Origin: Arthrobacter sp. ISL-5
GTDB taxonomy: Bacteria > Actinomycetota > Actinomycetes > Actinomycetales > Micrococcaceae
DNA length: 64,000 bases
Direction: 5' to 3'
Assembly: GCF_018613835.1 (NCBI RefSeq)
Contig: NZ_JAGGPM010000012.1
Coordinates: forward strand, 62,001-126,000
Positions 41,703 through 56,566 of this stretch are shown one piece after another. A program made the position numbers and the translations under genes. The first letter of the stretch is position 1. Every line of letters starts with the position of its first letter. Under the pieces are notes generated by a model. That model ran no database searches, had not been told where the DNA came from, and saw only the letters and a program-made list of their open reading frames with translations.

Positions 41703-43043
41703 CTAGAAACCGACCGTGGGTGTGGCCCTAAAGGCGTTAACAGCCCTATCTGCGATAACTTGGGCGTCACTTCCGGAATCAAGGATCGTATTCCGAGCTG
41801 ATTCGGAATCGACCATGACGGCCGTAACGGCGAGGCTGTCCGAAGCCTCGGTCGTCAACAGAGCGTCCACCTGAGCCGAGAAGCAGGAGTCACTTGACTT
41901 GGAGTGAACGTCCATCGCCACCACGTGGTTGTTGGAGACGAAGTTGCCAACCCCCGCCATCAGCCGGATGATGACAGGCGTCGCACCTGTCGGCCGGATG
42001 CTCTGTGAGTCGATGATCTGGGAGAAGTGGTTGCCGACGACAGAGTTGTTGCTGCCGCTGACACAGAGAAGTCCGTCGAGGTCGTTCAGTCCGTTGTCGA
42101 CTCCCAGGAAGGGCGTCCAGGGCTCATGGTCACGCAAGAAGTGATTCGTGGCCACGAGGTTTTCCGAACTATTCGCTGCGAGAATCAGCATCCCAGGGTA
42201 GAACGAATGCAAACGGTTGTTGGTGACGCTTGAACGCGTGACGCCTTCGAGATGGATGCTGCTCGCACCACGGGGGAAGACGTTGTTCGCGGTTATCAGG
42301 AGCCCGCCATGGTGCTCGGCGTAGATCGAATGACCCTTGAAGCCTGCTCCGACCATGTTGTCGGTGATCTTTGATGCCTGTCCCCACCCGCGCAGCTCGA
42401 TGCAGCTTCCGCATTCAGCGATGAAGTTGTCGTGAACGGAAAGCGCGTCCGCGTTGTAGATAGTGAGGGCGTTCTCAAGGTAGACGAACCCCATGCCGGT
42501 TACGCGGAATGAGTCATTGGCGTTCGCGACATAGATACCGGTCTTGCCGTTGATGTACGTGTTCTCCGGATGCATCCCCGAGCCATCCGAGTTGAAGTGC
42601 AACCCGTCGATGCAGAAGTTGGAGAACTCGACCGAGCTGATCCGCGGGCTCCCGCTTCGCTCAACGTAGAAGGCGGCTCCCTTGGATTCCTCGCCGTCTC
42701 CGCCGAGGGGAATGTCGACGAGAATGCGACTCCCTCCGGGCCACAGCTCATGCAAGTCGGGCCATTCGTCTTCGGGAACGTTGAACCGGATGCTCGACGA
42801 CGTAAAGCCGTGTCCCGAGCCATGGATCCTGAGGAAGCTGACGTCGATCACCACCTGCGTACGAAGGTGGTAGTCCCCGGGCGGAATGTAGATCACCGCG
42901 CCTGGCTTTCCTCCATTGTTCGCATCGGTGACGGTCTGCCGGTCCTTGATGTCAGCGATGATGCTGTTGATTACTTCACCGACGTCCTCGGACGGATTGC
43001 CGACGGGCCACGTAGTCACGTCGTAGTAGTTGTTGCTTGACAT
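41703..43043 (-). CDS. GH91 enzyme, probable cytoplasmic difructose anhydride hydrolase
   Basis: A 446-residue right-handed beta-helix protein of family GH91, which holds inulin fructotransferases and the related difructose anhydride (DFA III) hydrolases of Arthrobacter. The family core is clear: YYDVTTW at the start, IPPGDYHLRTQVVIDVS, NGKTGIYVANANDSF, GMGFVYLENAL and PRGASSIHLEG. Asp205 and Glu216, 11 residues apart in HDNFIAECGSCIEL, match the catalytic pair I remember for the family. It has no signal peptide, whereas extracellular inulin fructotransferases do. Cytoplasmic location beside an importer and a GH32 enzyme favours DFA hydrolysis over inulin cleavage. Last gene of the operon, 23 bases after GH32. 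Confidence 0.85.
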   Translation of the reverse strand: MSSNNYYDVTTWPVGNPSEDVGEVINSIIADIKDRQTVTDANNGGKPGAVIYIPPGDYHLRTQVVIDVSFLRIHGSGHGFTSSSIRFNVPEDEWPDLHELWPGGSRILVDIPLGGDGEESKGAAFYVERSGSPRISSVEFSNFCIDGLHFNSDGSGMHPENTYINGKTGIYVANANDSFRVTGMGFVYLENALTIYNADALSVHDNFIAECGSCIELRGWGQASKITDNMVGAGFKGHSIYAEHHGGLLITANNVFPRGASSIHLEGVTRSSVTNNRLHSFYPGMLILAANSSENLVATNHFLRDHEPWTPFLGVDNGLNDLDGLLCVSGSNNSVVGNHFSQIIDSQSIRPTGATPVIIRLMAGVGNFVSNNHVVAMDVHSKSSDSCFSAQVDALLTTEASDSLAVTAVMVDSESARNTILDSGSDAQVIADRAVNAFRATPTVGF

Positions 43044-43066
43044 AGCTTCTTTCCTTTGTGTCGCGG

Positions 43067-44650
43067 TTAACTGAGTGTTGAGACCGCGAGCTTCAGTATT
43101 GTTGCTGAGCCTCCCTCAGCCGATAGCCAGTTCTCCGGGTTTTCGGTTTCGGGGAAGATGAGATCAGTCAGGACGACCTTGCCTCCCTGGACGAATACTT
43201 CGACCGAGCAGTGGTCCACGACGATGAGTAATTTGAGCACGCCGTTTTCAAGGTCAACTGGTGCTGACTCGACCGAAGCGAATTTCCCGTGGAAGCAGGT
43301 GTTTCCTGATTGTCTGCGGTCAAGGATGAGTTGGGCGCTGGTTGTGTTGTAGCTAAGAATGGTGCCCTTGCTCCCGTCACTGCTTCCGAAGAGTCGGAAA
43401 TCAAAACGTTCGGCGCTTCCGGGCAGTATCTCCGCCTCGATGATTTGGGCGCTACCGGGTACCGCATCCGGCAATCGGAGGGCTGAATTTCGCAGCTCAA
43501 AGGTGTCTGCGTTTATTTGGTCCTTGGCAGTAGGCAGCTCTTCTCCTGCGCAAAGGTCGGCCAGGACCGGTTGCTGGATCAGACGGGCGGAGCCGTTGAC
43601 TGCTGTGAGGCGCACTTCGCGGGCGAGGGTCATCGAGGACCGCCAGGGGGCCGTGGGCAGCTCGTTGGCGTAGTCCCAGTTGTTCATCCAGCCGATGAGG
43701 ATGCGCCGGTCATCCGGGGCGTTGCTAAAGGAAACGGAGGCGTAGCAGTCGCGTCCCCAGTCCAGCCACAGGCAGTGCTGCAAGGCTGCAGAGCCCGCCT
43801 TGGGGTCAGGGAGGGAGGCCAGTCCCGCTGGCGCCGCGAGTGAACCGGCGTCCGGGAGGAACCGGGCGCCGTCGAAGTGCCCGATGAAGTACTGGCCGCC
43901 GGAACCTCCTGCCACTGCGCCGGGGTTAATGTTTACGATCAGTACCCATTTGATGTTGTCCGGGTCCCCGTCCACCGCCAGGGGAAAGAGATCGGGGCAC
44001 TCCCATTCGCCGGCGTCGGCGTTGGCCGGGCCGAAGTCGCTCAAAAAGTCCCAGGATTTGAGGTCTTCCGAACGATAGAAGACCACCTTTTGGTGCTGCG
44101 CTTCGACGGCGACCATGACCCAGCAGGCACCTTGGTCCCCTTGATAGCGGAAGACTTTGGGATCGCGGAAGTTCGCGGAGTTTCTGGTGAGGACAGGGTT
44201 TCCTTCGTATTTTTGCCACGTCATTCCTGCGTCTGTGCTGTAGGCCAGAGACTGGGCCTGCGTGCCGCTGTGTTCGGACGCGGCTTTATAGGCACTGGTG
44301 TAAATGGCTACGAGGGCAGGTGCGTCCGCCGTGCTGAAACCGGACGTGTTGCCGTGGTCGACTACGACACTCCCTGAGAAGATGTCCTCTGTCTCGTCGC
44401 AGGCAATGGCAACAGGGTGTTCCGTCCAGTGCACCAAATCACGGGAGGTGGCGTGGCCCCAGGACATGTTGCCCCAGACGCTGCCGTACGGGTTGTTCTG
44501 GAAGAAGAGGTGGTACAGGCCGTCGTAGAAGACCAGGCCATTGGGATCGTTCAGCCAGGTATCCCTTGCCGTGAAGTGGATGGCAGGCCGGAACCTGGAG
44601 GTTCCGGCCGGGGCTGTTTCCGGGCGTGCGGCATCTAGGCAACTGGACAT
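43067..44650 (-). CDS. GH32 beta-fructofuranosidase, cytoplasmic
   Basis: A 527-residue GH32 hydrolase. The three signature residues are in place: nucleophile Asp35 in WLNDPNG (32-38), transition-state stabiliser Asp163 in FRDP (161-164), and acid/base Glu217 in ECPD (217-220). A C-terminal beta-sandwich (about 370-527) completes the family fold. No signal peptide, so it should act inside the cell on a short imported fructan, such as the inulobiose that a DFA hydrolase would release. Start ATG has AGAGGA nearby. It is upstream of GH91 on the same transcript. Confidence 0.9.
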   Translation of the reverse strand: MSSCLDAARPETAPAGTSRFRPAIHFTARDTWLNDPNGLVFYDGLYHLFFQNNPYGSVWGNMSWGHATSRDLVHWTEHPVAIACDETEDIFSGSVVVDHGNTSGFSTADAPALVAIYTSAYKAASEHSGTQAQSLAYSTDAGMTWQKYEGNPVLTRNSANFRDPKVFRYQGDQGACWVMVAVEAQHQKVVFYRSEDLKSWDFLSDFGPANADAGEWECPDLFPLAVDGDPDNIKWVLIVNINPGAVAGGSGGQYFIGHFDGARFLPDAGSLAAPAGLASLPDPKAGSAALQHCLWLDWGRDCYASVSFSNAPDDRRILIGWMNNWDYANELPTAPWRSSMTLAREVRLTAVNGSARLIQQPVLADLCAGEELPTAKDQINADTFELRNSALRLPDAVPGSAQIIEAEILPGSAERFDFRLFGSSDGSKGTILSYNTTSAQLILDRRQSGNTCFHGKFASVESAPVDLENGVLKLLIVVDHCSVEVFVQGGKVVLTDLIFPETENPENWLSAEGGSATILKLAVSTLS

Positions 44651-44690
44651 GTCTGGCGTTCCTCTTGGGAAGTGGAAGGGGGCTGGCTGC

Positions 44691-45734
44691 CTATTGCCGG
44701 GGAGCCGTGATGGAATCGCGGCGCACGAGGGGGCAGCTCAGAATGGTCGGGTGAAGTGCCATGAGGGTAAGGTCGGTCTTCCCCTCGACGGCGTCAATCA
44801 GGTGCTCGGTGGCCCAAGCACCCATCTCGTAGTGAGGCAGGGCCACGGTGGTGAGGCCCGGGTGAAGGTTGGCGGCGATCAGTTCCTGGTCATCGAAGCC
44901 GACCACTGAAAGGTCAGCGGGGATGGTGAGTCCCAACTCCGCAGCGGCGCGGTAGGCTCCCATCGCCATCCGGTCGTTGTAGCAGAACAAGCCGGTGGGC
45001 GGGTCCTCGCGTGCGAGGATCCGCCGGGCCGCTTCATAGCCGCCTTGCACCTCGGAGACCTCGGACTCAACAGGTGCCGCGTCGCCGTCGAGCCCCGCTT
45101 CAGTTAGCGTGGCCCGGAAGGCCTGGAGCCGCTGACGGGTTGCGGGGACATCATCGGTGTTGTTGATGAAGCCCACCCGGGTGTGGCCCGCTTCGAGGAG
45201 CGCGCCCACGGCGGCGCGTGCACCACCTTCTTCGTCCGGGATCACGGCTGTGATGTCTCCGCCGGTGGCCACCGAGTCGACCAGGACGGAGGGCAGGCTG
45301 CCGAGGTTGGCCGGCAGCTCCACGTTGCGGTGATACATGGTGGCGTAGAGGATTCCGTCCACCCGGCGTTCCAGGAGGGCCTCGACGTCGGCCTGCCGGG
45401 ATTCGAGGCTGGCTGAGCCGGAGGTGTTGATGATCATGAGGTTGTACCCTCGGGCTTTGGCAGCCTCCTCAGCGCCGAGGATGATCCGGCCGGCGTGGGG
45501 CGTGGTGGCGATATCCTCGCTGACCAGACCCAGCATGCCGGTCCTCTGGGTGCGAAGGGCCTGGGCAAGGCGGTTGGGGCCATAGCCTAGTTGCTCCGCA
45601 ATGGTCCTGACCTTGTCCCTGGTTTCGGGGCTGATTCGGGCGTAGGAAACCTCGTTGAGGACGTGCGAGACAGTTGTCACGGAAACGCCGGCGGCGACGG
45701 CCACGTCCTTGATACCGATGTTCCTGTTGCTCAT
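44691..45734 (-). CDS. LacI-family regulator of the fructan locus
   Basis: A 347-residue LacI/GalR regulator. An N-terminal helix-turn-helix (IKDVAVAAGVSVTTVSHVLN, about 8-27) precedes a periplasmic-binding-protein-like sugar sensor. It is co-directional with the locus and lies between the transporter and the hydrolases. The palindrome upstream of the binding-protein gene is the obvious candidate site, with an imported fructose oligomer or its anhydride as inducer. The inducer is inference. Confidence 0.9.
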   Translation of the reverse strand: MSNRNIGIKDVAVAAGVSVTTVSHVLNEVSYARISPETRDKVRTIAEQLGYGPNRLAQALRTQRTGMLGLVSEDIATTPHAGRIILGAEEAAKARGYNLMIINTSGSASLESRQADVEALLERRVDGILYATMYHRNVELPANLGSLPSVLVDSVATGGDITAVIPDEEGGARAAVGALLEAGHTRVGFINNTDDVPATRQRLQAFRATLTEAGLDGDAAPVESEVSEVQGGYEAARRILAREDPPTGLFCYNDRMAMGAYRAAAELGLTIPADLSVVGFDDQELIAANLHPGLTTVALPHYEMGAWATEHLIDAVEGKTDLTLMALHPTILSCPLVRRDSITAPRQ

Positions 45735-45781
45735 CTGTCTCCCACGTCCTTATGGTTGGTGATGCTCTTGAGGGGCCGGGT

Positions 45782-45931
45782 TCACTCGTCCCAGAGGCCG
45801 TGTTCGGGCCAGCGGCGAGGAAGCCGTTCCTCGACCGGAGGCAGCTCGTGGTGCGTGTGCTTGCCGGTCTTGCACCAGTAGGCTACCGAGGAATAGTCGT
45901 TGCCCTTGCGCCAAACCGTTGAGCGGGCCAT
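45782..45931 (-). pseudogene. C-terminal remnant of a GH172 (DUF2961) gene
   Basis: The minus-strand frame from ATG 45931 gives about 49 residues in which NDYSSVAYW, a short CKTGKHTHH insert and ELPPVEERLPR match the C-terminus of GH172 enzymes. The rest of the enzyme (about 300 or more residues) is absent: the upstream DNA is the end of a permease gene. GH172 includes difructose anhydride I hydrolase/synthase in bifidobacteria, so a lost partner enzyme of the locus is likely. Whether any protein is made is doubtful. Confidence 0.7.
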
Positions 45932-46011
45932 TTGGCTGCCAAAATTCCATGTTCGCTTGCGTACCTTTCGATTTTCCCGTGCGGGTTGTTGTTCGTTTCG
46001 TTGTTGGTGGT

Positions 46012-46965
46012 CTAGCCCTTGACGGCGCCGAGCGTCATGCCTGCGACGATCTTGCGCTGCAAGAGAAGCGTGAGGAGGATGACCGGGATGGAATACACGG
46101 CGGCCAGCGCCGTCATGGACCCCCAGTCCAGGCCGAACTGGGTCTGGAAGTTCGCGATCACCACGGGCGTTGTCTGGGAGCGGATCGCTGTCATCAGGAG
46201 GGCGAAGAGGAACTCGTTCCAGGAGGCGAGGAAGGCGAAGATCGCGGTGACGGCGATGCTGCCGGAGACCACCGGGATCACCACCCGCCAGAGAGCGCCG
46301 AGCCTGCTGCAGCCGTCTACCGTGGCCGCTTCCTCCAGGTCATTGGGTACGGCTTCGAAGAAGCTGGACATCAGCCAGATCGAGAGCGGCAGTGAGATGG
46401 TGGTGTGGGCGATGGACAGTGCGATCGGTGTATCTGACAGGCCCATGGATGCCATCATCGAGGCCAGCGGGATGCCGATTGCCACCGGCGGCACCATGCG
46501 GGTGACCAGTGCGGCCATGATAAAGATCCGGCCGCTGAGAGTTTTGTACCTGGTGATGCCGTAGGCGGCCGGTACTGCCAGTACAAGCGACAGCACGGTG
46601 CTGATGATGGCCGTCTGGATGCTGTTGATGAAGGAGGCCAGGACTCCGCTGCGGCCCAGTGCGTTGGTGTAGTTCTCCAGCGTCCATTCCCTGGGGAGGA
46701 TGGTCGGCGGCACCGCGATGGTATCGATCGGGGTTTTGAAGGATGTGAAGAGCAGGTACAGGAACGGGAAACCGTAAAGCACCATGGCTGCCGCGAGGAG
46801 GACCCAAAGCAGGGTTCTGGTGCTCCGCCGGCCCGCTTCCAGGCCTTCACGGTTGACGCCCCGGCGCTTGCGGCCGCTGCTCCTTGTGGTGGTTGGCACG
46901 GAAGGTCCGGCAACGACCGGTGCTGCCTTCCCGCCGTCGGGCCTGGTTCGTTCAGCGACGCGCAT
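46012..46965 (-). CDS. ABC sugar transporter permease (MalG-like)
   Basis: A 317-residue inner-membrane subunit of a carbohydrate ABC importer (CUT1). A basic N-terminus of about 45 residues precedes six transmembrane helices; the EAA loop EEAATVDGCSRLGALWRVVIP contacts the ATPase. ATG overlaps the stop of the other permease by one base. No ATPase gene is in the window; a shared MsiK-type subunit elsewhere is expected. It serves the fructan locus. Confidence 0.92.
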   Translation of the reverse strand: MRVAERTRPDGGKAAPVVAGPSVPTTTRSSGRKRRGVNREGLEAGRRSTRTLLWVLLAAAMVLYGFPFLYLLFTSFKTPIDTIAVPPTILPREWTLENYTNALGRSGVLASFINSIQTAIISTVLSLVLAVPAAYGITRYKTLSGRIFIMAALVTRMVPPVAIGIPLASMMASMGLSDTPIALSIAHTTISLPLSIWLMSSFFEAVPNDLEEAATVDGCSRLGALWRVVIPVVSGSIAVTAIFAFLASWNEFLFALLMTAIRSQTTPVVIANFQTQFGLDWGSMTALAAVYSIPVILLTLLLQRKIVAGMTLGAVKG

Positions 46966-47852
46966 CAGTTGTCCTTTCCTGGCCGCCAGATGGTGGACAA
47001 CGCGACGAACGCGACGGCGAGCATGGCCAGCAGGTAGAGGGTTCCCATGGCGCTGGCCAGTCCGGGGTCACCGAAGCGGATCATGGTCCGGTAGATCAGC
47101 AGGCTCATGGTTTCCGAGGCGGATTGCGGGCCGCCGTTGGTTTGGATAAGGATGGTGTCGAACGCCCGGGCTGCATCGATGCCGCGGACCACCAGTGCCA
47201 CGGCGATGACCGGCCGCAGGAGGGGCAGGATGATGCGGAACAGCATCGCTGGTGCGCGTGCGCCGTCCAGGCGTGCTGCTTCGATCAGGTCCCCTGGGAT
47301 GTTCTGCAGCCCGGCGAAGAGCACCAGACACATGAACGATGTGGTCAGCCAGATGTCAGGAATGGCGACGGAGTAGAGCACTATATTCGGGTCGGAGAGC
47401 CAGCCGATCTGGTTGGGGTTGGACAGCATGCCGGCCTGGTGCAGGAGGGTTCCGATGAGGCCGAAGTTGTCGATCATCAGGAACTTCCAGAGGAGGCCTG
47501 CCACGATCGGGGCGATCATGAGTGGGTACATGAACACTGTCCGCCAAATTTGGGAGCTTCTCCCAAGGGTGGTGAACAGCAGCGCCATGCCAAGGCCGAG
47601 GGCGAATTCGAGGGTGACCACGACCAGGGTGTAGGCCAGGGTCCGCCATCCGGCACCCATGAAGGCTTCGGAGGCGAAGGCCCGGAAGTAGTTATCCAGA
47701 CCCACGAAGTCGCGGGGGCCGCCGGCGATCGGCGAGATCTTGAAGAAGCTGTCCGCCACGAGGCGGAACAGCGGGAAGGCGACAAACACTGCCAGGAACA
47801 GCGCCGCTGGTGTCATCAGGAACAATGCGAAGCGGCGATCGGAGATACGCAC
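46965..47852 (-). CDS. ABC sugar transporter permease (MalF-like)
   Basis: A 295-residue partner permease of the CUT1 family with six helices and an EAA loop (EAARLDGARAPAMLFRIILP). GTG 47852 is chosen because GGAAGAG lies six bases upstream; a longer TTG reading to 47897 is possible but has no ribosome site. It follows the binding lipoprotein by 66 bases and overlaps the next permease by one base. Confidence 0.9.
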   Translation of the reverse strand: MRISDRRFALFLMTPAALFLAVFVAFPLFRLVADSFFKISPIAGGPRDFVGLDNYFRAFASEAFMGAGWRTLAYTLVVVTLEFALGLGMALLFTTLGRSSQIWRTVFMYPLMIAPIVAGLLWKFLMIDNFGLIGTLLHQAGMLSNPNQIGWLSDPNIVLYSVAIPDIWLTTSFMCLVLFAGLQNIPGDLIEAARLDGARAPAMLFRIILPLLRPVIAVALVVRGIDAARAFDTILIQTNGGPQSASETMSLLIYRTMIRFGDPGLASAMGTLYLLAMLAVAFVALSTIWRPGKDN

Positions 47853-47918
47853 GGTTTTCTCTTCCGCTGGTTGGGGACCGCGGCCGGCACCGGTCAATCA
47901 GGTGCCGGCCACGGGGTC

Positions 47919-49202
47919 TTACTTGAGGAGGTCCTCGATCTGCTTTTTAGCGTCGGCGAGGAGGGTTGCGGAGTCACCGCCGGCCACGGCCTTCTGCAGC
48001 ATGGGAACCAGTACCGTGTCTACGATCTGCTGCCACTTCTCGGTAGCCGGCCGGGTGGCCGTGGCTTTCCCGTTGAGGGTTTCGATCAGCGGACCGAAGC
48101 TTTCGTAGCCTTCCTTGTCCTGGTACTTCTCAAAAGCTGAGATGCGCGAGGCCAGACCGAGGCTGGATTCAATGCCCATGCTGTTGTTGTCATAGGCGCA
48201 CTTGATGAACTTCTTGGCTGCATCAGTGTTCTTGGTTGCCTTCGGGACTGTGAGGTACCAGGGTCCCGGGACGCCCCCGATGCCGGCAGATCCGGCGATC
48301 ATGGGAGCTGCTCCCACTTTGCCGGCCACCGGTGAGTCCTTGGGGATCTGCCGGTAAGCGTGGGCCCAGAAGCGGGTCATTGCGGTCTTGCCCTGGTTGA
48401 ACAGGTTTTGGGCGGCAGCCCAGTCGACCTGCGCGGCACCGGACGGAGCGGACTTGGTGAGGCTGACGTAGAAGTCCAGGGCCTCCTTGTGCGCGGCGTT
48501 GTCGATGACCACTTTGTTGTTTTCGTCCAGGATCATGGGCGAGCCGGCCTGCAGAACGTGGGCCAGCCATTCGGTTTCTACACCGCCCTTGACGTCGGTG
48601 CCGTACATGCCGTCCCTGGTGAAGAACTCGGAGATGTCCTGGTACTGCTTCCAGGTGCTGGGTGCGGCGAGTTCGTAGCCGTACTTGGCCTGGAAGTCGG
48701 CCTTGTTCTTGGCATCCTCGAAGAGGTCTTTGCGGTAGAGGATGATTTCGGCGTTGGTCCAGGCGGGCAGGCCGATGAAGTGCCCGTCCACGTTCGCTTC
48801 CTTCACGAGGGCGGGGAAGATGTCCTTCTTGGCCTCGTCGGTGAAGATTTCATCGATGGGCTGGACAGCATCCTTGAAGCTGGGCAGCCAGACGGAGTCC
48901 AGGGCTGCTACGTCAAAGGAAACGGTGCCGGAGGAGAACTCGCTGGAGAGCCGGTTGAACATGCCGTCGTAGGGCAATTCGACAAAGTTCACGTCGACAC
49001 CGGCGTCCTTCTTGCACTGCTCGGCGACGCCCGTCAGCTCGGCGTGGCCGCCGGCCTCGACCAGGACGTTGACGGTGCTGGTGCCGGCGCTACCCGACGT
49101 TGCCGCCGGGCCCCCTGCGCCGCACCCGGCGGCCGCCAGGGCGACGACGGTGCAGATGCCGCCGATGGTGGCGAACCTGTTGATGGTCTTTCGAGTGGAC
49201 AT
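47919..49202 (-). CDS. ABC sugar-binding lipoprotein
   Basis: A 427-residue extracellular solute-binding protein. An N-terminal signal with the lipobox AAAGC (about Cys27) anchors it outside the membrane. It has the usual two-lobe fold with ALDSVWLPSFKD, GLPAWTNAEIILYRKDLF and PGPWYLTVPKATKN. As the first gene of the operon it defines the imported sugar; the context argues for a difructose anhydride or short fructan. The 17-bp palindrome and TTGACA promoter lie just upstream. Confidence 0.9.
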   Translation of the reverse strand: MSTRKTINRFATIGGICTVVALAAAGCGAGGPAATSGSAGTSTVNVLVEAGGHAELTGVAEQCKKDAGVDVNFVELPYDGMFNRLSSEFSSGTVSFDVAALDSVWLPSFKDAVQPIDEIFTDEAKKDIFPALVKEANVDGHFIGLPAWTNAEIILYRKDLFEDAKNKADFQAKYGYELAAPSTWKQYQDISEFFTRDGMYGTDVKGGVETEWLAHVLQAGSPMILDENNKVVIDNAAHKEALDFYVSLTKSAPSGAAQVDWAAAQNLFNQGKTAMTRFWAHAYRQIPKDSPVAGKVGAAPMIAGSAGIGGVPGPWYLTVPKATKNTDAAKKFIKCAYDNNSMGIESSLGLASRISAFEKYQDKEGYESFGPLIETLNGKATATRPATEKWQQIVDTVLVPMLQKAVAGGDSATLLADAKKQIEDLLK

Positions 49203-49256
49203 CGCTGTCGACTCACTTTCTCTCGAACGGAAATGGCGAGAATCTGGGGTGAAAAA

Positions 49257-49273
49257 TCGTTTTGCTAAAACGA
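49257..49273. promoter_or_regulatory. Candidate LacI operator
   Basis: TCGTTTTGCTAAAACGA is a perfect palindrome of 7-base arms and a 3-base centre. It lies just downstream of the predicted -10 and about 55 bases before the binding-protein start, a repression position for the LacI regulator of the locus. Confidence 0.75.
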
Positions 49274-49283
49274 CTTGGCATTC

Positions 49284-49313
49284 ACACTAAGACCACTTCT
49301 TGGAAAGTGTCAA
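49284..49313 (-). promoter_or_regulatory. Promoter of the fructan operon
   Basis: Read on the minus strand: -35 TTGACA (49313-49308), an 18-base spacer, then TAGTGT (49289-49284) as -10. The palindromic operator overlaps the expected start of transcription. Confidence 0.6.
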
Positions 49314-49614
49314 GCGTCACATCAGCCGACATTCCACCTATTGACGGCCGGGGGCAGTAAGCCCTAACGTGATCCCGGACCGGCGAAAAACCGTTTTGGC
49401 AACTTTGGCAGATCGCGCACCTGCGCAAGCAACATCAGTGTTCCGCCGGGTCAGGCCTTCCCACAGAGCTCAATGAAGGAGTTTAACGCGCAAGCCCACC
49501 CCCAGCATCCCGCCCGCAGAGCAGTGCTTCGAGCAGTGCTTCGAGCCGTGCGCACTACCGGAGCGGACCACCAACACAGCCACCGCCGAGGGCGACCAAC
49601 ACCCCGCAAACAGG

Positions 49615-50457
49615 TCAGTTCCACTCGCCGCGGCTTTGCAGCACTTCCTTGAGCAGGTCGGCGCGGTCCGTAACGAGGCCGTCCACGCCGAGGTCCAGCA
49701 GCCGGCGCATCTCGGCAGGATCGTTGACGGTCCACACGTGCACGTACAGCCCGAGTTCATGGGCGCGGCGGACATATCCCGGCGTCACCACGGGAACGGA
49801 CTTGTAGCTGACCGGCACCTGCAGGGCGTCCACGCCGCCCAGCACACGGCGCAGCGCGGCCCGCACCAACGAGCCCAGCGCCGGAACGGCCAGCAGGGGC
49901 CCCAGCACGAAAACCAGGGCGTTGGCGACGATCCCTGCCGAGGACGCCGTGCGGCGGCTGAGCAGCTTCAGCACCGCCCGCCGTCGGAGGTCCGAGAAGC
50001 TTGCGATCAGCACCCGGTCATGGACGCCGTGGCGTTCGATCGCGGCGGCGAGGCTGCGCACGGAGCGCCAGTCCTTGACGTCAAGGTTGAACCGGGTGTC
50101 CGGGAGGGCCGCCACGAGATCATCGAAGGTCGGTACCGGATCCGTCCCGCGGATCCGGGCCCGTGATACCTCTTCCGCGCTGAGGCCGGAGATCCGCCCG
50201 ATGCTGTCCGTGAGCCGGTCCAGCGAGGGGTCATGGAAGAGGAGCAGCACGCCGTCGGCCGTGGTGTGGACGTCCGTTTCGACGTACCGGCAGCCGAGTT
50301 CGACGGCGGCGCGGAACGCAGCCATCGAGTTCTCCAGGCCTTCGCGGGAAAATCCGCGGTGGGCCATGGCGATTGGCCGGCCCGCACCGGGAACATCCCC
50401 GGCATCAGGACCGGCCAAGGTCCCTGCAGCGGAGAAGAAAGGCAGCGGTTCGGTCAC
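49615..50457 (-). CDS. Glycerophosphodiester phosphodiesterase
   Basis: A 280-residue GDPD that hydrolyses deacylated phospholipids to glycerol 3-phosphate and an alcohol. The family motifs AHRGFSREGLENSMAAF, ETDVHTTADG and LFHDPSLDR supply the metal and catalytic histidines. A hydrophobic stretch (about 180-205) lies in the middle. No signal peptide, so a cytoplasmic or membrane-associated enzyme. GTG 50457 is used. It is downstream of nothing obvious and faces the operon boundary. Confidence 0.9.
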   Translation of the reverse strand: MTEPLPFFSAAGTLAGPDAGDVPGAGRPIAMAHRGFSREGLENSMAAFRAAVELGCRYVETDVHTTADGVLLLFHDPSLDRLTDSIGRISGLSAEEVSRARIRGTDPVPTFDDLVAALPDTRFNLDVKDWRSVRSLAAAIERHGVHDRVLIASFSDLRRRAVLKLLSRRTASSAGIVANALVFVLGPLLAVPALGSLVRAALRRVLGGVDALQVPVSYKSVPVVTPGYVRRAHELGLYVHVWTVNDPAEMRRLLDLGVDGLVTDRADLLKEVLQSRGEWN

Positions 50458-50490
50458 CTTCGAAGCGTAGCGGAGGGCCCGGGTTCCCGG

Positions 50491-50733
50491 TCAGCCCGGG
50501 AGGATCTCCACGCCGTCGCCGCAGTGCAGCAGCGTGCGGCCGCGGCCGCCGTCGAGGTCCACCCACACCACCGTGTGATCCGCCGTGACCGCAGTAATGA
50601 GCCCGCCGGTTTCGAATCCCGGACTGAGCCGCACGGTGACGCGGTCGCCCGCACGCAAGGCGGACCAGTGCGCATCCGGCTCCGCGCGGCGCAACGGAAT
50701 ATCGGCCGCGCTGACTGTCTTGTTCCTGGCCAC
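50491..50733 (-). CDS. Small conserved hypothetical protein
   Basis: An 80-residue soluble protein, probably a small SH3-like beta-barrel: VTVRLSPGFETGGLITAV, TVVWVDLDG and GRTLLHCGDGVEILPG look like regular strands. It may be co-transcribed with the GDPD gene 33 bases downstream. The start has no decisive ribosome site. No domain name comes to mind. Confidence 0.55.
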   Translation of the reverse strand: MARNKTVSAADIPLRRAEPDAHWSALRAGDRVTVRLSPGFETGGLITAVTADHTVVWVDLDGGRGRTLLHCGDGVEILPG

Positions 50734-50849
50734 GACGTCCCCTATCGCTCACACACATCAATCATCAGACGCGCCCACTCTAGGGTGCGAACGTGAACGT
50801 GAGTTGACCGCCAGCTGGGAGAACGGTGGCAAGCCGGCAACGGCAGTGT

Positions 50850-51668
50850 TTACGGCAGCCTGACGCCGAGCGCCGCGAGCTTTTCCTCGAGAATCTGGGC
50901 CACGCCGTCGTCGTCAAAGTGCGGCGCCTGCTGCCCGGCGGCGCGGATCGCCTCCGGGTGGCCGCTGGCCATGGCGTAACCGTGGCCCGCCCAGCGGAGC
51001 ATCTCGATGTCGTTCGGCATGTCACCGAACGCCACGACGTCGGCGGCTTCGATCCCCAGCGAGGCGGCATACTCCGCCAGCGTGACGGCCTTGTTGATGC
51101 CCGGGACGGACAGCTCCAGCATGGCGATGGTGGGCGCCGAATGCGTGACGGTGGCGAGGTCCCCGACGGCGGGTGACACCTCGGCCAGGAAGTCGTCCGC
51201 GGTGCCTTCACGGACAATCGCCAGGAATTTGACGACGGCGTCATCCGCCGTGAGTGTGTCAGCCAGCGGCGCCGGCGTGAACTCGGAAAGAAGCTCGCTG
51301 GAGCCGTTTTCGATGAAGCCGGGCTCGAGGTGGAAGCCGGTCAGGGTTTCCGCGGCGAAGAGGGCCGTGGGCCGCAGTTTCTTGATGATCCGGCGGACTT
51401 CAAAGACGTCATTGAGGGCCATGGTCCGGGCGGAAACCATCTTGTCCGCCTCGAGGTCCCACACCACGGCACCGTTGGAACAGATCACCGTCCCAGTATG
51501 GCCCAGCTGCTCTTCGAGCGGATGCAGCCAGCGCGGCGGGCGTCCGGTGACGAAGACGAGTTCGACGCCGGCCCCCCGGCAGGCGTGGAAGGCCCGGATG
51601 GTGCGGTCACTGATTTTCCCATCGTGCCCAAGGATCGTTCCGTCTATGTCACTTGCTACCAACCGCAT
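50850..51668 (-). CDS. HAD-family phosphatase, Cof type
   Basis: A 272-residue phosphatase with nucleophile motif ASDIDGTILG, the C2 cap, and C-terminal FGDMPNDIEML. Same group as the product of the HAD gene at 20798-21643 but only distantly similar, not a recent duplicate. Substrate unknown; sugar phosphates are typical. It ends about 115 bases before the small conserved gene on the same strand. Confidence 0.88.
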   Translation of the reverse strand: MRLVASDIDGTILGHDGKISDRTIRAFHACRGAGVELVFVTGRPPRWLHPLEEQLGHTGTVICSNGAVVWDLEADKMVSARTMALNDVFEVRRIIKKLRPTALFAAETLTGFHLEPGFIENGSSELLSEFTPAPLADTLTADDAVVKFLAIVREGTADDFLAEVSPAVGDLATVTHSAPTIAMLELSVPGINKAVTLAEYAASLGIEAADVVAFGDMPNDIEMLRWAGHGYAMASGHPEAIRAAGQQAPHFDDDGVAQILEEKLAALGVRLP

Positions 51669-51719
51669 GCTGCCAGTCTACGTGGGCACGGAGGGGCGCC
51701 CGGCCGCCGTCGTCCAGGG

Positions 51720-51765
51720 TCACGGGGTGCGCCTCGCTTCACGGGGTGCGCCTCGCTTCACGGGG
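51720..51765. repeat. 19-bp tandem repeat at the end of a LacI gene
   Basis: TCACGGGGTGCGCCTCGCT occurs at 51720-51738 and 51739-51757, followed by a third partial copy TCACGGGG at 51758-51765. The last copy contains the stop codon of the LacI gene, so part of the gene's end was duplicated. Confidence 0.85.
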
Positions 51766-52792
51766 CAGAGGGCGGGTGGCTGGTGGATCCCCGTATCTGC
51801 AGTTCGCTGGACACAAGATGCAGTCGGCGCGGCAAGTCAGGGCTTCCGATGCGTTCGAGAATGAACCTGCCTGCCTGGACTCCGACGGCGAGGTTGCCGT
51901 TGTCCACCGATGTCAGGGAGAGGTGGCGGATCCGCGCGAGGTACGTGTTGTCATACCCCACCAGCGAGACGTCCCCCGGCACGGCAAGGCCGTGGTCGGC
52001 CGCAGCCGAAAGGGCGCCGATGCAGGCGACGTCGTTGAAGGCGAAGATTGCCGTTGGCCGGTCGGGGCCGGCCAGAAGGCGGTCGGCGGCCGCGAAGCCG
52101 CTTTCCTCGCTCATGCCGCCCGACACGACCCGGGGTTCCAGTCCCGCAGCCTTCATCGCATGCTCGTAGCCCGCCCGCCGGCGCCTGCCGATCTCGTCGG
52201 GGCCCTGCAGATGCGCGATGAGCTTGTGGCCGAGGGCCAGCAGGTGCTCGGTTGCCTTCCGCGCGCCGGCTTCGTCGTCGTTGACCACGATGTCCACGCC
52301 CGGCAGGGCAGGGTCAAGTGTTCCTGCCAGAACGACCGGCACAGCTGCGGCAGCTGTTTCGATGGCGGATGATTCCGTGGTGGTTCCTACCACCACGAGC
52401 CCGTCAATACGCTGTTCGAGCAGGGCTTCCACGGAACGCCGGCCCACCCTGCGGTCCGTGTAGGAGTCCGCCAGGATGGGTGAAACTCCGGCTGCGTGCA
52501 GTGAGGCGGTCAGCCCCTCCAGGAGTTCGACGAACCAGGGGTTACGGAGGTCGTTCAGCAGGACTCCGACCGTGCCGGTGCGGGGCATCGAGAGCCCGCG
52601 GGCCAGCTTGTTGGGGCGGTACCCCAGTTCCTCCATCGCCTGCAGCACCGCCCGGCGCCGGCTTTCGCTGACGTTCCCGGAACCCTGCAGGACGAGGGAG
52701 ACCAGCGACTTCGATACCCCGGCGCGGGTGGCGACGTCACGGATGGTGGGCCTGCTGGCGGGCGTGCCGCTCGCGGCGGACGGGTGGGTCAC
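51758..52792 (-). CDS. LacI-family regulator beside two Gfo/Idh genes
   Basis: A 344-residue regulator with helix-turn-helix IRDVATRAGVSKSLVSLVLQG. GTG 52792 is preferred over ATG 52813 because GAGAGGAG lies six bases upstream of it. Its stop sits in a 19-bp tandem repeat. Divergent from the Gfo/Idh genes, with a palindrome between, so it probably represses them. Its ligand is unknown; a sugar or polyol is likely. Confidence 0.9.
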   Translation of the reverse strand: MTHPSAASGTPASRPTIRDVATRAGVSKSLVSLVLQGSGNVSESRRRAVLQAMEELGYRPNKLARGLSMPRTGTVGVLLNDLRNPWFVELLEGLTASLHAAGVSPILADSYTDRRVGRRSVEALLEQRIDGLVVVGTTTESSAIETAAAAVPVVLAGTLDPALPGVDIVVNDDEAGARKATEHLLALGHKLIAHLQGPDEIGRRRRAGYEHAMKAAGLEPRVVSGGMSEESGFAAADRLLAGPDRPTAIFAFNDVACIGALSAAADHGLAVPGDVSLVGYDNTYLARIRHLSLTSVDNGNLAVGVQAGRFILERIGSPDLPRRLHLVSSELQIRGSTSHPPSAP

Positions 52793-52827
52793 GGTAACTC
52801 CTCTCGGTGCCATCTCAGCCTAAGGGG

Positions 52828-52868
52828 TTGACGGCTTCGTCCCGTTTCACTCATTATGGACCGGTCCA
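52828..52868 (+). promoter_or_regulatory. Promoter and operator of the Gfo/Idh operon
   Basis: TTGACG (52828-52833), 18 bases, then CATTAT (52852-52857) form a good promoter for the plus-strand genes. The perfect 12-bp palindrome TGGACCGGTCCA (52857-52868) overlaps the transcription start region, as in LacI repression. Confidence 0.75.
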
Positions 52869-52896
52869 AGGAAATTCCAAGGAGGGAAGAATCTTC

Positions 52897-54081
52897 ATGA
52901 GCGCACCGCACACACGACAGTTGCTGGCCGGCATGGTGGGAGGCGGGTCCGGGGCGGACATCGGCAAGACCCACCGCTCCGCCATGCGGCTGGACGGCCA
53001 GTTCGACCTGCGGGCCGGCGTCTTCGGCCGCGAACAGCGCCAGGCTGCGGTGCTGGCCGGCCAGCTGGGCGTGCCGGAGGACCGCGTCTACCGGGACTAC
53101 CGGCACATGGCCGAAGCCGAAGCTGACCGCGAGGACGCCGTGGACGTCGTTGTTGTCGCCACGCCCAACGACAGCCATTTCGAGATCGCCCGGACGTTTC
53201 TCGAAGCGGGCATTTCGGTGGTGTGCGAGAAGCCGTTGACGCGCGATTCGGCCACCGCCGCGGAGCTGGTCCAAGTGGCCGCCGCCAACGGCGTGGTGCT
53301 GGCGGTCCCGCACTGCTACTCCGCCTATGCCATGGTGCGCCAGGCGGCCCGGATGGTCCGCGACGGCCGGCTGGGCAACATCACGTTCGTGGACGTGGAG
53401 CACGCTTCCGGCTGGGCCGCCACTCCGCTGGAGCAGCTCGGACACAAGCAGGCCGCCTGGCGCACTGACCCGGACATTGCCGGATTCCCCAGCGTTGTTG
53501 GCGATCTGGGCACGCATGCCTTCCACCTGCTGCGCTACATCACCGGGCTTGAGGCCGAGCGGCTTTCCGGGCGGCTGCACACGCTGGTGCCCGGAAGGCG
53601 CGTGTTCGACCACGCCACAGTCGAACTGCAGCTGACCGGCGAGGTTCCCGCCCGGCTCTGGGCCAGCATGGCCGCGACCGGCCACAACCACGGCCTGCGC
53701 ATCCGCGTCTTTGGCGACCAGGGAAGCCTGGAGTGGGATCACGAAGACCCCCACCACCTCAGGGTGCAGGACCTCGACGGGACCACGACCATCCTCACGG
53801 AGGGTCTCCGCACACTGTCCGAGGACGCGGCGCGCCTCACCCGCGTTGGCCTGGGGCATGCCGAAGGATTCCTCGAGGCCTTCGCCAACTTCTACCGCGA
53901 CCTGGCAGAGGAGCTGCGCGCCAGGCGGGATGGCACCCTGCCCGCAACGCGCGAGCTGAGCTTTCCCACCGGCGAGGACGGCCTCGCCGGCGTCAGGTTT
54001 GTCGAAGCCGTCGCGGCCTCCCACCACAACGATGCCGCCTGGGCCGTCCCGGCGGGCGCCGCAGAGAAAGCACGGGTCTAG
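52897..54081 (+). CDS. Gfo/Idh/MocA oxidoreductase
   Basis: A 394-residue NAD(P)-dependent dehydrogenase of the Gfo/Idh/MocA family. The N-terminal Rossmann fold starts LLAGMVGGGSGADIGKTH; the catalytic-lysine motif CEKPL and the GDLGTHAFHLLRYITG segment (Asp/His) follow. The start ATG is preceded by AAGGAGG at twelve bases. The stop is followed two bases later by the next Gfo/Idh gene, so both form one operon. Likely oxidises a sugar or inositol hydroxyl; exact substrate unknown. Confidence 0.88.
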   Translation: MSAPHTRQLLAGMVGGGSGADIGKTHRSAMRLDGQFDLRAGVFGREQRQAAVLAGQLGVPEDRVYRDYRHMAEAEADREDAVDVVVVATPNDSHFEIARTFLEAGISVVCEKPLTRDSATAAELVQVAAANGVVLAVPHCYSAYAMVRQAARMVRDGRLGNITFVDVEHASGWAATPLEQLGHKQAAWRTDPDIAGFPSVVGDLGTHAFHLLRYITGLEAERLSGRLHTLVPGRRVFDHATVELQLTGEVPARLWASMAATGHNHGLRIRVFGDQGSLEWDHEDPHHLRVQDLDGTTTILTEGLRTLSEDAARLTRVGLGHAEGFLEAFANFYRDLAEELRARRDGTLPATRELSFPTGEDGLAGVRFVEAVAASHHNDAAWAVPAGAAEKARV

Positions 54082-54083
54082 CC

Positions 54084-55148
54084 ATGCAACGCTTCGCACT
54101 CATCGGGGCAGGATTCATCGGATCCGTCCACGCCGCAAACCTTGCGGCCAACCTTCACGTCGACTTCCGTCTGGTTTACGACGTCGATCAAGACCGGGCC
54201 CAAACCCTGGCCGCAGCCCACGGCGCGCGGGCAGCCACCTCGCTGGATGAGGTGTTTGACCCCTCGGCCATCGACGCGGTCTTCATCGCATCCTCCACCG
54301 ATACGCATGCGCAGCACCTGCGCCGCGCGGCCGAGGCCGGCCTGGCGGTGCTTTGCGAGAAACCGATCGATCTGGACCTGGAGCATGCCCGGGAGACTGC
54401 CGCCTACGCCTCTGAGCGCGCGATTCCGGTGATGATGGACTTCAACCGCCGGTTCGACAGCGACTATGCCGAGCTCAAGCGGATTGTTGACGCCGGTGAG
54501 ATCGGCAAGGTTGAACTCATTCAGCTGTCCAGCCGCGGCCCCGCGATGCCGCCGCTGTCCTACATCGCCACGTCCGGCGGCCAGATGCGCGATCAGGCCG
54601 TTCACTTCTTCGACCTGGCCCGCTGGCTCACCGGCCTCGACCCGGTGGAGGTCTTCGCCACCGGATCCGCACTGGCCGAACCCCGCTTGGAGGAATACGG
54701 CGACGTTGACACCTCCGCCGTGACGCTCCGGCTCCCCGGCGGCGCCCTGGTGCAGATCGACTGTGCACGCCGCACCGGCTACGGCTACGACGAACGCATC
54801 GAGATCATGGGGTCCACAGGCATGGCCGAGGCGCGCCGCCACCGGACGGGCGCAGTATCCCGCTACCAGGCCGGGCGCGTCATCGACGACGGCCTGCACC
54901 CGGGCTGGTTCGAACGGGTCCAGCCCACCTACGCGGCCGCGCTCGCCCACTTCGTCGCGGCGTTGGACAAGTGCGCCCTGGGCGACGGCGCACTGATCGA
55001 GGGCGCACTGATCACCCCGTCGCTCGAGGACGGGCTGAAGGCCCAGGCCATCGCGGAGGCGGCCATGGCTTCGCTCCGCAGCGGACGAACCGAAACAATC
55101 AACTACGAACCCGTCCTGGTCCCTTCAGCGCTCCATGGATCGGCCTGA
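54084..55148 (+). CDS. Inositol 2-dehydrogenase-like Gfo/Idh oxidoreductase
   Basis: A 354-residue Gfo/Idh protein with IGAGFIGSVHAANLAA, CEKPIDLDLE, and the GGQMRDQAVHFFDLARWL segment typical of myo-inositol 2-dehydrogenases (IolG). It begins two bases after the previous Gfo/Idh stop and must be translated from the same mRNA. No other iol genes (iolE, iolB, iolC) are near, so inositol itself is not proven; scyllo-inositol or a sugar is equally possible. Confidence 0.82.
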   Translation: MQRFALIGAGFIGSVHAANLAANLHVDFRLVYDVDQDRAQTLAAAHGARAATSLDEVFDPSAIDAVFIASSTDTHAQHLRRAAEAGLAVLCEKPIDLDLEHARETAAYASERAIPVMMDFNRRFDSDYAELKRIVDAGEIGKVELIQLSSRGPAMPPLSYIATSGGQMRDQAVHFFDLARWLTGLDPVEVFATGSALAEPRLEEYGDVDTSAVTLRLPGGALVQIDCARRTGYGYDERIEIMGSTGMAEARRHRTGAVSRYQAGRVIDDGLHPGWFERVQPTYAAALAHFVAALDKCALGDGALIEGALITPSLEDGLKAQAIAEAAMASLRSGRTETINYEPVLVPSALHGSA

Positions 55149-55200
55149 TCACCGGCACGTTTTGTTCCGGCCCTCATGTCGTGGCGAATCGGGTGGGCCA

Positions 55201-55865
55201 CTACCTGCGGAGTATGTTCCGGAGGCTCTCCACGGTGACGGCTTCAAGCGACGTCACAAAGTGGCGGCCGGCGGCGGAGGAGGGCCGGACAACTCCCGGG
55301 ACCACCACGACTTCCATCCCGGCGGCCTGGGCACTTGTTGTGCCGCTGACGGAATCCTTCACAGCCACACAATTAGAGGGCTCAACGCCGAGGAGTTCGG
55401 CGGCCGCCAGATAGGGGGCCGGGTGGGGCTTTCCCTGCGGGACCATGTCACCGGCGACGACGGCGTGAAAGGTTCCGATGGGTGCTGCGGATGCCACGCG
55501 GGTGGCGACCGGGCTGAAGGCCATGGTGACCAGGGCCGAGGGTATCCGGGCCGCCGCTAGTTCAGCGAGGATCCTTTCGGCGCCGGGGAGCCACGGGATG
55601 CCCTCTTGGAGTTTCGCCACGACACGCCTGAGGAGCTCGCTGATGATCTCCTCGGCGGACAGGGGTACGCCGTGTTGCTGAAGTATGGCAGCGGAGACCT
55701 GCATGGCCTGCCCGACAGTGGAGCGGGCGTTGTCGGCGGTCCACTGTCGCCGTGCGTCTCCGCAAGATCCCGCTGGACAGCCATCCAGAACGGCTCTGTG
55801 TCAACCAGGGTGCCGTCCATATCCCAGAGAACGGCTTTGAGCTCATGCGGGTCCATTGAAGTCAT
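55201..55865 (-). pseudogene. HAD phosphatase (beta-phosphoglucomutase-like) with a frameshift
   Basis: The first part (from ATG 55865) has the nucleophile motif LLWDMDGTLVDTEP-like AVLWDMDGTLVDT and VQRDLAETHG. The rest continues in another frame from about 55748 with STVGQAMQVSAAILQQHGVPL, PWLPGAERILAEL and KPHPAPYLAAAELLG. A single base missing near 55748-55749 (HG-GQ-WTADNAR expected) explains the break. Last gene of the transporter/kinase/aldolase operon. Like the frameshift at 28035 it may be a true mutation or an assembly slip. Confidence 0.85.
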
Positions 55866-55909
55866 GGCCCCGACCGTCCTTTCGGAATTCCGGAGACCTG
55901 CTGCTGCGC

Positions 55910-56566
55910 TCATCCACCCACCGCGTTCCCGGCGACGGATGCGAGCAGATCCCGAACCGCGTCCGCCCCCTCGTCGGAGGAGAAGTCTGAGCTCAAGCCT
56001 ACGACGCTGACTTCGGCTGCGAGGTAGGTCAGCGCGGTGGCCGCCTTCATGCCGCCGGTGGCGACGAACTGCACGTCGGGGAAAGGTCCTTTCATGGCCT
56101 TGACCCAGTCGGGGCCGAGAACCGAGGCGGGGAAGGCCTTGAGCCAGGTGAGGCCGAAGGCCTTGGCGCGGAGGATTTCGCCCGCCGTGGCCACGCCCGG
56201 GAGGTGCGGCATGCCGCGGCGGATGCTCTCTTGGATGATTCCTTCATCCAGTCCTGGGGAGACTGTGAAAGATGCGTTGGCGGATGCCGCGGCGTCCAGT
56301 TGGTCGATTCTGATGATGGTGCCTGCGGCCACGGCCACGCCGCGTTCGGCGGCGGCGCTGGCCACTGCTGCCAGCGTGCGGACGGCTTCGGGGGTTTCGA
56401 TGGTGACTTCGACGTGCTGGACGCCTGCGTCCCAGGCCCGGGTGGCGGACCTGACTGCCTCGCCGGGTGTGAGGCCGCGGAGTACGGCGATGACCGGGAC
56501 CCGGAAGAAGTCGTCGTCAAACCAGTCGTGGAGCAATGTGTGGGCTGCCAAGGTGTTCTCTTTCAT
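55910..56566 (-). CDS. KDPG-type 2-keto-3-deoxy-phospho-sugar aldolase
   Basis: A 218-residue class I aldolase of the KDPG/KHG family. Glu53 in VEVTIET, Gly/Thr at 82-83, SPGL (103-106), PGVAT (123-127) and Schiff-base Lys143 in LKAFPAS are in the expected places, followed by ATGGM. It cleaves 2-keto-3-deoxy-6-phosphogluconate or -galactonate to pyruvate and glyceraldehyde 3-phosphate. Overlaps its HAD-phosphatase neighbour by four bases if the latter starts at 55913. Gene order with a PfkB kinase indicates a 2-keto-3-deoxy sugar acid. Confidence 0.9.
   Translation of the reverse strand: MKENTLAAHTLLHDWFDDDFFRVPVIAVLRGLTPGEAVRSATRAWDAGVQHVEVTIETPEAVRTLAAVASAAAERGVAVAAGTIIRIDQLDAAASANASFTVSPGLDEGIIQESIRRGMPHLPGVATAGEILRAKAFGLTWLKAFPASVLGPDWVKAMKGPFPDVQFVATGGMKAATALTYLAAEVSVVGLSSDFSSDEGADAVRDLLASVAGNAVGG

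Follow-up and report, generated by a model that had tools for sequence, protein, structure and literature searches.

Genes for a GH91 hydrolase, a GH32 enzyme and an ATP-binding cassette (ABC) transporter lie together in Blautia strains for which GH91 activity and the use of difructose anhydride III (DFA III) were reported in 2024, and a route consisting of import, opening to inulobiose and cleavage to fructose was proposed for them (PMC11538131). Three-stage 'monopolising' pathways have also been described for cyclic sugars, namely for cyclodextrin and cycloalternan (PMC8605356). The sources cited in this text are represented by excerpts and what we say of them, above all of what they do not describe, holds for those excerpts. 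Here we describe a locus of the same kind in Arthrobacter sp. ISL-5, found in a window of 64,000 nt (by window we mean the whole stretch of DNA that was analysed), which is part of contig C4 of a draft genome of 5.35 Mb in 70 contigs. We consider it highly probable, on the basis of sequence comparison, that this locus serves to import DFA III and to hydrolyse it inside the cell under LacI control, in a lineage that lost the enzyme producing the sugar. The route suggested in the original prediction for this DNA is not new; the Blautia paper already proposes it.

The locus consists of six co-directional genes on the minus strand, at 41703-49202, listed here from the gene of the solute-binding protein (SBP) to that of the GH91 enzyme:

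47919-49202, minus strand: SBP_bac_1 solute-binding lipoprotein of a CUT1-type importer, predicted DFA III binder (PF01547, 5e-30)
46965-47897, minus strand: ABC permease, MalF/UgpA-like (PF00528, 4e-10; a UgpA-like NCBIfam match of 5e-31 is under the cut-off of the model)
46012-46965, minus strand: ABC permease, MalG-like (PF00528, 1e-15; 1-base overlap with the preceding gene)
44691-45734, minus strand: LacI-family regulator, likely a local repressor (PF00356, 2e-16; PF13377, 5e-35)
43067-44650, minus strand: GH32 beta-fructosidase, predicted to convert inulobiose to fructose (PF00251, 7e-97)
41703-43043, minus strand: GH91 DFA III hydrolase (DFA-IIIase), as assigned from homology to 5zks, clade and residues

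The Pfam matches of all six genes exceed the curated cut-offs and the intergenic distances are, in the same order, 21 bases, an overlap of 1, 277, 40 and 23. Gene calls and Pfam bear out the six genes, their positions and their single strand as they had been given in the original prediction, whose reading as a whole, import followed by opening, is supported, the substrates being predicted. Precisely, the CUT1-type importer, of which a binding lipoprotein (with a lipobox-like AAAGC, read by eye) and two permeases are present, would take up the cyclic difructose DFA III, the GH91 enzyme would then open it to inulobiose and the GH32 enzyme would likely cut inulobiose to fructose.

Among solved structures the GH91 protein is matched end to end by the DFA-IIIase 5zks (E 9e-250, with 361 of 445 residues identical), the inulin fructotransferases (IFTases) being far weaker matches. 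Its lid segment, residues 377-407, aligns to 5zks and is skipped by the IFTase chain 9j4i, whose match to the GH91 protein ends at 376 and restarts at 408. A scripted check found Asp205, Glu216 and Cys387; we took the first two as equivalents of D207 and E218, which are essential in AaDFA-IIIase (PMC4640833). The same kind of check found the GH32 motifs NDPNG at 34, RDP at 162 and ECPD at 217, so that all the catalytic residues previously noticed in the two hydrolases are present. No signal peptide was seen when the translations were read by eye, either at the GH91 N-terminus, MSSNNYYDVTTW, or at that of GH32, in agreement with the claim that both hydrolases lack one. The match of the GH91 protein to PF18835, the inulin fructotransferase beta-helix, is a narrow pass (31.7 bits, cut-off 30). 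We rejected a reading as a NosD copper protein (TIGR04247, 22.7 bits, cut-off 300) as a beta-helix cross-match, and the NosD matches on C66 of the ISL-5 genome gave no match to the GH91 query.

For the GH91 tree we used 43 rows, among which were 4 Bacillota, 8 of the 58 hydrolases found in a family set (395 genomes drawn from the larger family) and 16 of the 17 leaderless IFTases of the same set, the remaining one, that of G297 with its shorter match, being left out. The window, 5zks, the 8 family hydrolases and the 4 Bacillota form a 14-row clade with a Shimodaira-Hasegawa-like approximate likelihood ratio (SH-aLRT) support of 100. A second group, also with a support of 100, is made of 11 IFTases with a leader, 2inu and 9j4i; for a third group, that of the 16 leaderless IFTases, the support is just 24, and the tree program flagged long branches meeting where the large groups split. 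In the very test that had been suggested for it, then, the window protein sits with the DFA III hydrolases and apart from the IFTases, and it has the lid that is missing from 9j4i.

Our strongest new argument for the assignment of the importer is co-occurrence. We considered the SBP as present in a genome if it was matched at E<=1e-60, most genomes being scored on their four best first-look candidates. Following this rule it was present in 59 of the 395 family genomes, namely in every genome with a full DFA-IIIase (58 genomes, 71-100% identity) and in G220. One genome, G317, was counted neither as DFA-IIIase-bearing nor as IFTase-bearing: it has a C-terminal GH91 piece alone (C25:34470-34805 in L161, residues 335-446, 88%), likely a decayed hydrolase, and no SBP at E<=1e-60. 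In all 58 genomes the SBP and the DFA-IIIase lie on one strand within 9180 bases, together with a LacI gene and a GH32-type gene, the latter matching the window GH32 in 54 cases and being a shorter GH32-like protein in 4. This count takes in SBP, LacI, GH32-type and GH91 genes; as for the permeases, the G177 and G271 rows have no match to one of them. With 58 of 58 loci arranged in this way, the grouping is far from chance.

We also examined 80 named loci, which share species with the family set. In 20 of 20 genomes taken from them (14 Bacillota and 6 Actinomycetota; L037 appears in the family set as G006) the top SBP match of the whole genome adjoins a GH91 gene, at E<=1.7e-85, and the next-best match anywhere in those genomes is 1.2e-20 (positions compared by hand). 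In the ISL-5 genome there is no second SBP match at E<=1e-60. A Rhizobium leguminosarum plasmid carries in one row a LacI gene on the opposite strand, an SBP 49% identical to that of the window, two permeases, an ATPase of its own, a GH91 gene and a beta-fructosidase. GH91 proteins similar in sequence to the DFA-IIIase were found in 84 plasmid records, 70 of them Rhizobium (e.g. CP007069.1, CP042359.1, NZ_AP024648.1); among the 15 rows listed they show 66-87% identity, and there they are often annotated as NosD domain-containing protein.

G220, the genome with the SBP and no DFA-IIIase, has retained the importer and LacI together with a GH32-like protein and an IFTase, a kinase-like frame being visible by eye, and in the place of the DFA-IIIase it has a GH172/DUF2961 gene (L197:3378-4499; PF11175, E 8.5e-85). 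GH172, present in 22 of the 395 family genomes, is the family of the DFA I hydrolase (PMC8605356). From its gene content, G220 is a natural swap of the hydrolase beside the same importer, which suggests that this importer follows DFA hydrolases of either family. The SBP is thus tied by co-occurrence to the DFA III hydrolase and DFA III is its predicted ligand.

There is no ATPase gene among the six of the locus. Orphan importers of Actinomycetota share an ATPase coded elsewhere in the genome. One PF17912 (OB_MalK) protein exists in the whole ISL-5 genome, at C69:24255, and by analogy the importer likely borrows this lone MalK/MsiK-type ATPase. The original prediction was silent on the missing ATPase, as it was on the operators and on the fact that the genome has no detectable IFTase.

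The region upstream of the SBP gene contains the following elements, the last of which includes the beginning of a small open reading frame (ORF) with a twin-arginine translocation (Tat) signal:

49250-49267 and 49263-49280, no strand assigned: two overlapping LacI-type operator-like sites (matrix scores 20.9 and 25.1)
49284-49313, minus strand: likely promoter of the SBP gene and operon, with TTGACA at 49308-49313, read from the sequence
49341-49370, plus strand: orphan divergent promoter-like element, TTGACG ... TAACGT, read from the sequence
49384-49401, no strand assigned: third LacI-type operator-like site, at the orphan divergent promoter (matrix score 14.9)
49402-49534, plus strand: remnant of a producer operon, with its leader, the sequence GAAGGAG (49475-49481) and the first 15 or so codons of the small Tat-signal ORF

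Both overlapping sites lie just downstream of the likely SBP promoter, and a similar TTGAC element is seen in those SBP upstream sequences of relatives that were inspected. In 58 of the 59 family loci the operator pair precedes the SBP gene by 57-138 bases, G330 having the first site alone at threshold; the matrix was built from the same loci that it later scored. In the whole window no site reaches a score of 9 besides the three upstream of the SBP gene. An 18-base operator consensus, with at most 3 mismatches allowed, gave one match in the ISL-5 genome, upstream of the SBP gene, and none for the reversed control, which points to a LacI with a local target. This regulator likely represses the operon from the two overlapping operators at the SBP promoter and would be released by an internal inducer. 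A generic promoter scan listed neither the SBP promoter nor the divergent one. The counterpart of the latter in relatives points at an IFTase operon.

No second GH91 or IFTase was found in the ISL-5 draft genome at E<=1, the GH91 query returning the hydrolase alone. The genome therefore has no detectable IFTase of its own, as a three-stage self-sufficient pathway from inulin to DFA III would require, and this agrees with the original claim that the sugar is made by other microbes. With the same query, IFTases beyond a stub were found in 28 of the 395 family genomes, 27 of them with a DFA-IIIase in the same locus (G297 was counted as IFTase-bearing, its match covering about two thirds of the protein). 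Consequently, 31 of the 58 genomes with a DFA-IIIase have no full IFTase, whereas 27 of the 28 with an IFTase have the hydrolase. In three of the 31 an IFTase stub is left upstream of the SBP gene: in G181 it covers residues 11-56, in G374 residues 1-53 at 92% identity, and in G369 residues 272-401, farther upstream. The third operator and the divergent -35 motif, 35-41 bases apart, are found in 22 of the 28 IFTase-bearing loci, in all three stub loci and in 10 of the 28 loci with neither IFTase nor stub, including that of the window; this spacing rule was written after seeing examples and is a description, not a blind test.

In the window the relic was seen through DNA comparison with the IFTase-bearing G330 alone. 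The stretch 49203-49534 is 74.6% identical to the upstream DNA of G330 over 342 columns, the first part of the alignment being the common SBP promoter region. The similarity stops at 49534, which is 47 bases into the small ORF of G330, the gene preceding its IFTase. The region around the start of this ORF (49452-49534 in the window) is 81% identical over 84 columns, with an E value of 6e-17, and the window has no start codon where that of G330 lies. Parts of the small-ORF region also remain in the IFTase-less G341, G347 and G378. As protein, no IFTase remnant was found by a sensitive tblastn of two IFTases against 44001-56000, where matches were at chance level (best E 0.049).

The stubs and the window relic argue for a loss of the IFTase, and the direction of change that we infer is loss rather than gain. 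The absence of an IFTase together with the upstream relic makes it probable that an ancestor had a self-sufficient inulin pathway, that its producer half was lost and that the lineage now relies on DFA III from other organisms; the locus itself is likely the descendant of such a pathway. Judging from the upstream DNA, the IFTase that was lost had no leader. In the family set 16 of 17 IFTases of that kind adjoin a DFA III hydrolase. The loci have a mosaic history: the window GH91 is 98% identical to that of G374, whose locus has another gene order, and the window SBP is closest to that of G362 (96%), yet the GH91 of G362 is just 86% identical to that of the window. By GH91 the nearest named relatives are Arthrobacter species, with 98% identity.

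The small ORF whose beginning survives in the window has 57-70 residues in the 13 copies obtained with our first rule, and combines a twin-arginine and a hydrophobic stretch with a conserved end (GHRHLIGVL, for example). With a wider rule it was found in the family loci upstream of 17 of 17 leaderless IFTases versus 0 of the 11 with a leader (carrying a twin-arginine of their own), and in 12 of 2400 random stretches of the same loci. In the named loci, where 25 of 30 second GH91 copies were tested, it precedes 11 of 13 leaderless IFTases and 0 of 12 with a leader; the two misses are L046, the second of tandem IFTases, and L087, with a near-match ending ATLLGVL. Loci in which the ORF stands before a leaderless IFTase include L196, L028, L029, L037, L039, L042, L054, L056, L067, L070 and L071. 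As for the operator spacing, the rule was drawn up after seeing examples, so these counts are a description and not a blind test. Changes at codon positions 1, 2 and 3 of the 13 copies number 1759, 1463 and 2618, a pattern that fits a coding sequence, and the fact that 1164 of the 3451 differing codons are synonymous suggests fast evolution outside the ends. NCBIfam gave, on three small ORFs, sub-threshold matches to Tat-signal and other models.

According to the original prediction the GH91 fructotransferases are secreted: some do have a leader, but a signal peptide is not universal, since 17 of the 28 IFTases of the family set are leaderless. A 2011 review (PMC5448860) notes that Arthrobacter globiformis S14-3 has an extracellular, DFA I-producing IFTase whose gene codes for no signal peptide. 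A precedent for an escort is MelC1 with the tyrosinase MelC2 (PMC2758597) and, by analogy with this pair, the likely reading is that the small protein would carry the folded leaderless IFTase through the Tat pathway. This, if true, would answer the puzzle printed in the review. For the full history we regard the chances as evenly balanced: an ancestor would have exported a leaderless IFTase by means of the small Tat escort, the lineage, in common with several relatives, would have discarded both genes but retained importer and hydrolase and even the promoter and operator of the producer, and producers and scavengers of cyclic difructose would now coexist in the genus.

Some of our data weigh against the picture of a DFA III importer with a lost DFA III producer. 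The best solved relatives of the SBP, of low similarity, are binding proteins of the maltose type or for other sugars, so they do not indicate its ligand; in G390 the match to the second permease is split in two; the GH91 gene on a Rahnella plasmid has major facilitator superfamily (MFS) transporters on either side and no ABC set; and one stop interrupts the matched frame in three (G062, G149, G328) of the 58 family hydrolases. A PfkB-type kinase, likely a fructokinase, lies within the DFA locus in 37 of the 58 family loci (e.g. L014:12595-13530), and the other 21, including that of the window, have no PfkB match in the locus, the nearest PfkB kinase of the ISL-5 genome being on C44 (57%). Among the best 120 of 2835 database relatives of one leaderless IFTase, those specifically named are annotated by their sources as DFA-I-forming, so that DFA I may have been the product of the lost enzyme, although most leaderless IFTases of the family set adjoin a DFA III hydrolase. 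Finally, the nearest solved relative of the GH32 enzyme is the exo-inulinase 8i12 (6e-171), and the importer might therefore also carry inulobiose or short inulin oligosaccharides.

This last point leads to an alternative in which the main cargo of the importer would be inulobiose or short inulin oligosaccharides released by secreted GH32 enzymes, the GH91 enzyme just draining stray or reverse-made DFA III. The ISL-5 genome, with GH32-type matches on five further contigs, does contain on C36 a GH32 gene with a signal-like N-terminus, and the DFA-IIIase reaction of Blautia is reversible (PMC11538131). However, in the family sample the SBP was found solely with a DFA-IIIase or, once, with GH172, the genome has no second SBP match at the threshold used above, and the permeases beside the GH32-type genes on C44, C10 and C5 are 27-32% identical to those of the window; we judge this alternative improbable. 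That the GH91 protein is itself an IFTase, acting inside the cell on imported fructans, would be compatible with the shared family and with the frequency of leaderless IFTases, but the clade, the identity to 5zks and the lid segment led us to reject it as an IFTase, and we give this idea almost no credence.

A further alternative concerns the history of the locus: no IFTase was ever present here, the relatives gained one beside an older importer, and the upstream likeness is ordinary promoter conservation. On the tree of 59 SBPs no fewer than 13 changes of the IFTase label are required, of which starred branches force 8, and a number as low arose in 2 of 500 shuffles; taken alone, this does not tell gain from loss, which is a point against our reading too. 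Under the rule used, 18 of the 28 loci with neither IFTase nor stub also have no divergent operator/-35 module, and the common promoter region makes up much of the alignment with G330 (342 columns). Against a gain stand the similarity itself, which extends over the leader, the ribosome-binding site and some 15 codons of the small ORF before it stops, and the three relatives with stubs upstream of the SBP gene, one of them of 53 codons at 92%. A gain thus seems to us unlikely, and we retain the loss of the producer half.

A second fructan locus is present in the same genome, at C44:174431-185615 (L164), with a GH32 gene whose open frame misses the N-terminal part, two genes of the LacI kind, permeases and a binding lipoprotein of an ABC transporter, a GH172 (DUF2961) gene at 182253-183035, a further GH32 gene and a PfkB kinase. 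It is likely, from its gene content, a DFA I locus, in which case DFA I as well as DFA III may be used by the strain.

Compared with the described systems, the window contains a known kind of locus; what is new is the relic of the producer operon and the assignment of the transporter by co-occurrence. The relic and the possible escort raise it above a plain sugar locus, and for the producer relic and the escort reading we found no earlier account in the open-licence literature. As in Blautia, a GH91 DFA-IIIase, a GH32 enzyme and an ABC transporter are joined in one cluster; Blautia belongs to another phylum, its transporter rests on adjacency, and the excerpt of that paper describes no producer relic. 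Arthrobacter ureafaciens and strain H65-7 share the leaderless DFA-IIIase and GH32, the two-step breakdown and the conserved equivalents of D207 and E218 (PMC4640833, PMC8605356), but they make their own DFA III with an IFTase, and transporter and regulator are not described in the excerpts. The DFA I locus of Bifidobacterium dentium likewise has LacI, GH32, an ABC transporter and a DFA hydrolase in a genome with no IFTase, the hydrolase being in this case the GH172 alphaFFase1, which acts on DFA I and not on DFA III (PMC8605356); G220, in which the importer of the window stands beside a GH172 gene, can be compared with it. The resemblance to the 'monopolising' pathways is that a cyclic product is made outside, imported and opened inside (PMC8605356), with the difference that stage one appears to be lost in the window. 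Co-occurrence in Actinomycetota, in Bacillota and on a Rhizobium plasmid in this way links a transporter family to a cyclic disaccharide, and the genus would offer a natural system with producers and scavengers side by side and molecular relics of the loss.

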